Shown in pieces: positions 16,382-17,877 of a stretch of 64,000 nucleotides of DNA. This DNA comes from Prochlorococcus sp. AG-409-K04. GTDB taxonomy: Bacteria; Cyanobacteriota; Cyanobacteriia; PCC-6307; Cyanobiaceae. Position 1 is the first letter of the stretch, and each line of letters opens with the position of its first letter. Location: the NCBI GenBank assembly GCA_003215555.1, contig QCKE01000004.1, positions 1 through 64,000 of the forward strand, in the 5' to 3' direction. The notes under the pieces are model-generated. The model was not told the DNA's origin. It was given only the letters and a program-made list of their open reading frames with translations, and searched no databases. A program made the translations under genes and the position numbers.

Positions 16382-16789
16382 ATGAAATTAAAATGCATGA
16401 GAAATATCTTATTTAGCCATTTAATTCTTCTCATCATTTATTTTCCAATCAAAACAGATGCTTTAATCCATGACTGGATAGCAGTTCCTAGTAGTCAATA
16501 TGGAGAACAATTATGGGATAAAAATAGTTTTCAAAAAAATCAAGATAGTTCTATAAGAGTGTTCAGTAAATTTATCCCTAAAAGAACTACAAAAATTACC
16601 AAAGAAATTCTTTATACAATGGATATTGATTGTTCCAACAAATCATTTAAGGATGTTGCAATCGGTCAAAAAACATTTAATAAATTCAAAAGCAAGAATT
16701 CTGAATGGCAAAGTCCCAATGGAGACAAACTAATTCTAGGTATAATCGATCAAGTTTGTACTTTTGATAGCAATAAAAATATCTCTTAA
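16382..16789 (+). CDS. Small secreted protein of unknown function
   Basis: 135-residue protein with a clear signal peptide (NILFSHLILLIIYFPIKTDA, cleavage probably after the alanine near residue 27). The mature part is about 108 residues and starts LIHDWIAVPSSQYGEQLWD. Two cysteines (DIDCSNKSFKD and DQVCTFD) could form a disulfide in the periplasm. The short repeat-free, strand-rich pattern resembles small periplasmic proteins found in picocyanobacteria that describe themselves only as surface-adhesin-like. I do not recognise a function. It precedes the glycine-pentad cluster, which is on the opposite strand. Confidence 0.7.
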   Translation: MKLKCMRNILFSHLILLIIYFPIKTDALIHDWIAVPSSQYGEQLWDKNSFQKNQDSSIRVFSKFIPKRTTKITKEILYTMDIDCSNKSFKDVAIGQKTFNKFKSKNSEWQSPNGDKLILGIIDQVCTFDSNKNIS

Positions 16790-16906: not shown

Positions 16907-17143
16907 TTAAGACAGTCCCATAACTTTGAATCCATAAACTATTAATCCGCATCCAACCAGGCAAGCATTAAGCAATCCCATCCCAACCGCACCTACTGTA
17001 ATAACTCCCATCGAGACTCCTCCAATAGCAACAAATCCCATTGGAACCAACCCAATAGCAATAATTCCACGAGGAGCTATCCCAAAGGCAACTAATTTGA
17101 ACATGCGTTGAGAAACTTCACCATTTTGAAGAGTTTTTGTCAT
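16907..17143 (-). CDS. Glycine-pentad hydrophobic repeat protein (short paralogue)
   Basis: 78-residue protein of unknown function. From residue 21 to 76 a glycine recurs at every fifth position (21, 26, 31 ... 76; only 61 is Cys), with hydrophobic residues between and a PMG/SMG alternation, e.g. GLVPMGFVAIGGVSMG. The pattern may form either a membrane-inserted element or a tight beta-solenoid with one strand per pentad. It is clearly a paralogue of the repeat part of the neighbouring 17186-17617 protein, including the shared break NA(C/S)(L/I)VG. It lacks the C-terminal DUF3721-like part. No signal peptide is seen. Confidence 0.72.
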   Translation of the reverse strand: MTKTLQNGEVSQRMFKLVAFGIAPRGIIAIGLVPMGFVAIGGVSMGVITVGAVGMGLLNACLVGCGLIVYGFKVMGLS

Positions 17144-17185
17144 TTAATAATGAAGAAAAGAAATTTTTTAGCAGGAATTAAAAAG

Positions 17186-17617
17186 TTACTTAGAAGTGCC
17201 ATGAGTGGCACATGGCATCCAAAAATGTCCCATTTTGTGAACACCTAAGCATCCAAGTTTTCTAGCCTCTTTCTCTGCCTCAGTTCTGGTTGAATAAGCG
17301 TAAATATTCTTTGAAGAGTCGTTGGACTCAGTAAGAGTTCTTTGCAACGTTTCTCCTTCTGGGCTCCAGACTTTAAGGCCCATTGTCGTTATCCCTGCTG
17401 AAAATATTCCCATACCAACTATGGAAGCGTTAACAACTCCCATGGCCACCACTCCCAGTGAGACAACGCCCATTGGAACTATCCCAATAGTAACAATTCC
17501 CATTGGAACCACCCCAATAGAAATTACACCCAGTGGAGCTATACCAATTGCAATTTTTTTTGGCTTACCACCACAATGAGAAGGAACTTGTGATTGTTTC
17601 TGATCAGAATCATTCAT
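17186..17617 (-). CDS. Glycine-pentad repeat protein fused to a DUF3721-like domain
   Basis: 143-residue protein. Residues 25-80 hold twelve consecutive five-residue units with glycine at positions 25, 30, 35 ... 80 (65 is Ser), alternating the types VISIG and VVPMG, so the true period is about ten. The C-terminal part (about 103-140: YSTRTEAEKEARKLGCLGVHKMGHFWMPCATH) matches the short domain I recall as DUF3721 in marine picocyanobacteria, with two conserved Cys and the HKMG motif. The repeats are overwhelmingly hydrophobic. The neighbour at 17668 encodes the same C-terminal domain on a lipoprotein. Function unknown. Confidence 0.75.
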   Translation of the reverse strand: MNDSDQKQSQVPSHCGGKPKKIAIGIAPLGVISIGVVPMGIVTIGIVPMGVVSLGVVAMGVVNASIVGMGIFSAGITTMGLKVWSPEGETLQRTLTESNDSSKNIYAYSTRTEAEKEARKLGCLGVHKMGHFWMPCATHGTSK

Positions 17618-17667
17618 AATTTTGATTAAGAAATTACCAATTCATATAATGCTTTTTATCAAATGTT

Positions 17668-17877
17668 TTAGTGCTCTTTATGAGATGAATGACTTTCACA
17701 TGCCATCCACTTCTCACCCATTCTATGAGCACCAATGCAATTGATTTTTTCAGCAGCCTTTTCAGCTTCTAGCTTAGTATCAAAAAGTACTTTTACACTA
17801 GTTTCTTTGTTTTGATAAGAACAGCTACTGAGAAGAGCAAAAGGCAAAAGAAAAGTGAAAAAGTAATTTTTTTTCAA
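17668..17877 (-). CDS. Small lipoprotein with DUF3721-like domain
   Basis: 69-residue protein starting with a lipoprotein signal (KKNYFFTFLLPFALLSSCS; lipobox LSSC with the lipid-modified Cys near residue 19). The mature part holds the domain VLFDTKLEAEKAAEKINCIGAHRMGEKWMACESH, with paired cysteines about 15 residues apart and a histidine-rich tail (ESHSSHKEH). The Cys/His pattern suggests metal binding or a disulfide, which is inference. It is upstream of the two glycine-pentad genes on the same strand. Confidence 0.72.
   Translation of the reverse strand: MKKNYFFTFLLPFALLSSCSYQNKETSVKVLFDTKLEAEKAAEKINCIGAHRMGEKWMACESHSSHKEH

Follow-up and report, generated by a model that had tools for sequence, protein, structure and literature searches.

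Here we present a lipoprotein and a hydrophobic glycine-repeat protein, encoded by neighbouring genes in Prochlorococcus and both carrying the small domain DUF3721, as a candidate pair for handling trace metal in the cell envelope, with Cu(I) as the favoured metal. Judged from sequence, this reading stands at about an even balance between right and wrong. It rests foremost on a ladder of methionine, histidine and cysteine that recurs every ten residues along the repeat. As far as could be checked, this ladder, the exchange of a tail for a domain at the end of the repeat protein, and a neighbourhood resembling petR-petP in other cyanobacteria are all new. An initial annotation of the same DNA had noticed the repeat and its pairing with DUF3721, and missed that the repeat is already catalogued as GLTT (PF01744) and that likely ligands lie inside it.

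Genes and protein families

The window, by which we mean the whole stretch of DNA analysed, comprises the first 64,000 nucleotides of contig QCKE01000004.1 of Prochlorococcus sp. AG-409-K04 (GCA_003215555.1), a genome of 1.41 Mb in 38 contigs that is 75% complete. Three genes on its reverse strand concern us here (Table 1), and the closest named relatives of the middle one, a fusion of the repeat to DUF3721, come from Prochlorococcus single-cell genomes. Downstream of the short paralogue, a forward-strand gene (16382-16789) encodes a secreted-looking protein of 135 residues with no Pfam match. A phage origin was considered and rejected, since no match was found among phage records or viral contigs.

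Table 1. Positions in the window of the three genes and of the features within their products
Feature	Position	Strand	Description and basis
GLTT-DUF3721 fusion gene	17186-17617	-	143 aa; ORF and Pfam matches
Fusion, N-terminal motif HCGGKPKK	17555-17578	-	residues 14-21; alignment
Fusion, repeat region	17375-17554	-	residues 22-81, about six decads G-h-x-[PAGT]-M-G-h-h-[ST]-h; sequence
Fusion, ladder	within 17375-17554	-	Met39, Met49, Met59, Met69, Met79
Fusion, DUF3721 domain	17201-17296	-	about residues 108-139; C123, H127, M129, W133, M134, C136, H139; Pfam, alignment, AlphaFold2
Short GLTT paralogue, without DUF3721	16907-17143	-	78 aa; ORF and Pfam match
Short paralogue, ladder	within 16907-17143	-	Met35, Met45, Met55, Cys65, Met75
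DUF3721 lipoprotein gene	17668-17877	-	69 aa; lipobox LSSC, TTG start, short His tail; Pfam match
Lipoprotein, DUF3721 domain	17686-17784	-	Pfam
Lipoprotein, His tail HSSHKEH	17671-17691	-	sequence

The initial annotation had described two adjacent paralogues with glycine at every fifth residue, and open reading frames do lie at 16907-17143 and 17186-17617. In the fusion, 11 of the 12 glycines between residues 21 and 85 fall in a single five-residue phase, which none of 200,000 shuffles matched, and the phase slips once, at residues 63-68 (NASIVG). The SIG and PMG types of pentad alternate as had been reported. Glycine at every fifth residue thus stands, while the pentad does not hold up as the conserved unit; that unit is, on the sequences aligned below, a decad of two unlike pentads.

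The repeat matches the Pfam family GLTT (PF01744) in both the fusion (E 9.1e-19, 67.1 bits) and the short paralogue (E 9.2e-9, 35.3 bits), each above the gathering cut-off of 21 bits. Six proteins from outside the picocyanobacterial family score 51-91 bits, and each protein is matched in two to three stretches. GLTT was described in Pfam from XGLTT repeats of C. elegans, with function unknown. Our family resembles it in having a five-residue glycine repeat that passes the curated cut-off, and differs in its decad with a Met/His/Cys position and in the metal-type tails on its proteins. The literal XGLTT pentad was not found in the window proteins, whose pentads are G-h-x-[PAGT]-M and G-h-h-[ST]-[ILVA]. 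An ordinary pentapeptide repeat of the A(D/N)LXX kind, which the initial annotation had already set aside, is rejected by the lack of any match to PF00805 at E up to 10.

The hydrophobic character first ascribed to the repeat is borne out by a stretch of 60 uncharged residues with a mean Kyte-Doolittle value of 1.90. Because KPKK precedes this stretch, the sequence hints that it enters the membrane and leaves the N-terminus on the inner side; C15, G16 and P19 of the surrounding HCGGKPKK motif are invariant in an alignment of 24 fusions.

The presence of a DUF3721-like domain in one repeat protein and in the next lipoprotein upstream, also part of the first description, is confirmed by Pfam (PF12518). 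The fusion scores 63.8 bits (E 1.2e-17, model positions 1-32 of 33) and the lipoprotein 58.9 bits (E 4e-16, positions 1-33 of 33), so that both domains are near full model length and above the gathering cut-off of 27 bits. Both GLTT and DUF3721 are catalogued families without assigned function, and no paper in the literature we searched names DUF3721, "GLTT repeat" or PF01744.

Distribution of the pair

Of 201 genomes in the Prochlorococcus family, 179 gave a match to the fusion, some of the weakest matches perhaps being to the repeat or the domain alone. In almost every one of 80 Prochlorococcus loci the gene directly upstream of the fusion encodes a lipoprotein with a lipobox, DUF3721 and, as a rule, a long stretch of His, and His runs such as GHHHHH end many of the lipoprotein orthologues. 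The lipoprotein-fusion pairing is a family trait and extends well beyond this window, where the initial annotation had allowed that it might be confined. In one near-complete, single-contig genome (L035 of G010) the fusion gene carries one in-frame TGA, either a broken gene or a sequencing error.

The two families differ in their reach. DUF3721 occurs in 36 of 292 genomes sampled across the phylum, all 36 of them inside the family of Prochlorococcus and none outside. GLTT repeats occur in 69 of the same 292, of which 33 come from other families; among 195 genomes from a different order, 58 have them too.

The Met/His/Cys ladder

When the repeats were aligned by glycine phase, every second pentad was found to have Met or His directly before Gly. 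Across 170 unique cores, Met, His or Cys occupied 845 of the 850 cells at the five positions of this ladder; at the corresponding half-decad positions the same residues filled 12 of 850, with free variation among I, L, V, A, F, T and Y. The search pattern that collected the cores put no constraint on the ladder residues. Among 32 representatives below 80% identity the figures were 155 of 160 for the ladder and 9 of 160 for the half-decad positions. All five exceptions come from a single protein, L041, and arise because one pentad was lost and the count there runs out of register. In that gene (L041:1651-2079, the fusion of genome G056) exactly one pentad is missing, the first decad being shortened and all five ladder Met kept.

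The composition of the ladder follows the kind of protein. The fusion has Met at all ladder positions, ladder 4 of the short paralogue is either Cys or Met, and many ladders outside the family have His at ladder 0-2 and then Met, others there having Met only. In register, the residues that replace a ladder Met are His, at ladder 1-2 of outgroups, and Cys, at ladder 4 of the short paralogue, and never Leu, Ile or Val. Since Met here swaps only with His and Cys, unlike a position in a hydrophobic core, the ladder looks like a site for soft-metal ligands; metal ligation best explains the exchange pattern, and candidate ligand side chains likely lie within the repeat as well as in DUF3721.

The repeat might instead be purely structural, a beta-solenoid or membrane anchor with Met in its core, leaving DUF3721 as the sole functional domain, for metal or thiol. 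Such a role would suit a hydrophobic repeat this regular, in which Gly could form the turns; Met is possible as a core residue, and L041 kept its gene after losing a whole pentad. We nevertheless consider it improbable, because a core Met should be exchanged for Leu, Ile or Val rather than for His and Cys. The missing PF00805 match also counts against it, as does structure prediction, which yields no solenoid. In an AlphaFold2 run on the fusion with 61 sequences, DUF3721 alone was resolved, and the repeat had a pLDDT of 43-49 (about 45) with no confident helices or strands. The short paralogue reached 55.5 overall, with two low-confidence helices. Structure prediction of both repeat proteins, which the initial annotation had proposed, thus gave a confident DUF3721 and a repeat without a confident fold. 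By sequence, no solved structure was a convincing relative, and VIA-align found no structural relative among 13 Foldseek candidates.

DUF3721 and the exchange of tails

In the fusion, DUF3721 was predicted at a pLDDT of about 79-93, as a helix (residues 111-121) followed by two strands (125-129 and 132-136). By strand alternation, His127, Met129, Met134 and Cys136 would share one face of the resulting hairpin. The seven residues C, H, M, W, M, C and H are each kept in at least 227 of 231 motifs, a count that is slightly circular because selection demanded four of the seven, and the same seven are invariant in the separate fusion alignment. The proposed pairing of the repeat with a Cys/His domain is real, and the invariant Cys, His and Met look like metal ligands.

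CusF is a periplasmic Cu(I)/Ag(I) chaperone, and DUF3721 recalls it in having His, two Met and Trp close together in sequence as a similar small set. It differs in its predicted helix-plus-hairpin fold, two extra Cys and a second His, and the window proteins have no Pfam match to the CusF family at E up to 10.

The repeat protein of other cyanobacteria comes without DUF3721 and ends in a tail rich in His and sometimes Met (SPHKHHQH, HNHHNH, MEMEMPME). Because DUF3721 takes the place of this tail in picocyanobacteria, where the DUF3721 of the lipoprotein gains a His tail of its own, the sequences suggest a like function for tail and domain. What this analysis adds to DUF3721, a family of unknown function, is thus a set of ligand-like residues and an exchange with a His/Met tail. 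The oxidisable Met and Cys, together with the two conserved Cys of DUF3721, would also fit an envelope thiol/redox or stress protein that has no metal role and uses these residues as oxidant sinks. That reading seems to us very unlikely, as oxidant scavenging leaves both the Met-to-His exchange in the ladder and the His-rich tails unexplained.

Neighbourhoods outside the family

We read the neighbourhoods of 40 loci outside the family, with 20 random regions as a control. In four of them (L089, L099, L317 and L303) the ladder gene adjoins genes for a BlaI/CopY-type repressor and an M48-type protease, the types that form the PetR/PetP copper switch of cyanobacteria (PMC7896320). In the first three, ladder, petR-like and petP-like genes follow in that order on one strand; in L303 the arrangement is divergent, with a PepSY gene between. 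By a rough estimate, about 0.04 PetR adjacencies would be expected by chance in 40 loci. This likeness to the known switch has its limits, as the commentary in PMC7896320 names no such protein in it, and the picocyanobacterial copies of the ladder gene lie elsewhere.

Other neighbours are of metal type as well. A cytochrome c of the c6 kind adjoins the ladder gene in L082, L313 and L318, that of L082 matching the NCBIfam model PetJ below its cut-off. CopC-CopD (L082), a copper-type P-ATPase (L097, L305), a CusA-like pump (L084) and a metal ABC permease (L320) lie near the ladder gene, and a Zn/Cd-type ATPase lies beside it in L101. Counting neighbours for any metal, 12 of the 40 loci have one against 2 of the 20 random regions (Fisher p 0.11, the loci being related by descent), so this small control shows no significant enrichment overall, and the petR-petP adjacency is the strong part. 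Metal-type neighbours accompany 12 of 25 His-type ladders against none of 15 Met-only ones (p 0.001, ignoring kinship, with types assigned by reading).

Two genomes have two ladder genes each. Those of G504 lie beside petR-petP-like genes (L317) and beside a c6-like cytochrome (L318), and of the two in G553 (L312, L313) one is beside P450-like genes and the other beside a c6-like cytochrome. PepSY-type membrane proteins occur near the ladder gene in two lineages (L303:5370-6809 and L305:6511-6837, the latter judged by eye).

The zinc island of picocyanobacteria

Within the family, the commonest neighbours are regulators of the Fur/Zur family, ZnuC, ZnuB, ZnuA, a porin and a COG0523 GTPase. These neighbours could show the function directly, with the lipoprotein and the fusion handing zinc to ZnuABC as accessories to its acquisition. 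In 39 of 155 picocyanobacterial loci znuB lies within 7 kb of the pair, in several gene orders and against a chance of about 0.8% per locus. The order porin, lipoprotein, fusion, RHH, znuB, zur, znuC, znuA, COG0523 is kept in 19 loci and, without the porin, in 6 more; other znu arrangements occur in L125/L212, L274 and the L103/L105/L151 group. Zinc would also be bound by His-rich tails. However, the other 116 loci lack znuB within 7 kb, and independent linkage events are few because most loci share one inherited gene order. A ladder of Met would, moreover, make a poor zinc site. In the window's genome, 75% complete, ZnuB has no match.

Zur-box-like sites stand at znuA in most znu loci, but 80 loci showed none ahead of the lipoprotein gene, where the best matches were no better than shuffled sequence. 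We therefore rejected membership of the pair in the Zur regulon, and consider an accessory role in zinc acquisition unlikely. A search for any shared DNA motif upstream of the lipoprotein genes returned weakly enriched A/T-rich words and nothing else. Transcriptomics in WH8102 assigned to Zur only the znu genes, bmtA and a few uncharacterised neighbours (PMC9337993).

The island has two further features. In many Prochlorococcus loci a porin-like reading frame runs divergently from the lipoprotein-fusion pair and may belong to the same metal system; in L260 and others the porin-like protein has a His/Met-rich N-terminal extension (GGGDHKGHHDHHDSHMKM..., MGGMGGMGGM). The island's ZnuA (L119:11712-13265) and COG0523 GTPase (L232) share a similar extra stretch (FEWAGVFEL.../FEWTGVFSL...), resembling a common insert.

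Discussion

In the model we favour, the DUF3721 lipoprotein, with its His tail, would capture a metal ion outside the cytoplasm and pass it to the membrane-associated GLTT-DUF3721 protein, whose row of five Met, one per ten residues, would keep or relay the metal as a store, a relay or a sensor input. The ladder protein of other cyanobacteria, which often has some His among its ladder residues, would use its His/Met-rich tail in place of DUF3721. The make-up of the sequences, the conserved ladder, the swap of tail for domain and the gene neighbourhoods are observed, and from them we infer metal binding, the identity of the metal, the membrane location and the direction of transfer alike. We rank Cu(I) as the likeliest metal, since it is liganded by Met, His and Cys and since relatives of the repeat protein lie beside petR-petP-like genes, cytochrome c6 and copper ATPases; zinc is the second choice, on account of the zinc-island neighbourhood. 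Several observations speak against the model. Metal-type neighbours occur only with His-type ladders, whereas the window's fusion is Met-only, and the picocyanobacterial neighbours suggest zinc, a metal that Met binds poorly. The lipoprotein gene lacks a Zur box, this genome gave no ZnuB match, the excess of metal-type neighbours over the small control is not significant, and AlphaFold2 assigned the repeat no confident fold.

A bolder proposal, which we put forward tentatively and think unlikely, is that the decad repeat would be a metal conduit of a novel type. Its thioether and imidazole ligands would form a linear ladder across or alongside the membrane, the end modules (His/Met tail or DUF3721) would be interchangeable, and the conduit would bring Cu(I) to targets in the envelope and, outside picocyanobacteria, inform the PetP copper sensor. 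One protein to compare is CopM of Synechocystis, which belongs to the cyanobacterial envelope and whose many Met and His bind copper, as is proposed here for the ladder protein; CopM folds as a soluble bundle of helices (PMC12292863), whereas the ladder protein consists of hydrophobic glycine repeats.

Few photosynthetic organisms are as abundant as Prochlorococcus and its relatives, for which trace metals are at once limiting and toxic. The pair described here is nearly universal in their family, strongly conserved and built from two catalogued families without an assigned function, for both of which the ladder offers a hypothesis at the level of single residues. If it is right, the pair would supply a missing component of metal handling in picocyanobacteria. 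The petR-petP-like genes beside the ladder gene in other cyanobacteria would then also point to a candidate route by which PetP, the protease in control of the switch between plastocyanin and cytochrome c6, receives copper or a signal of it.
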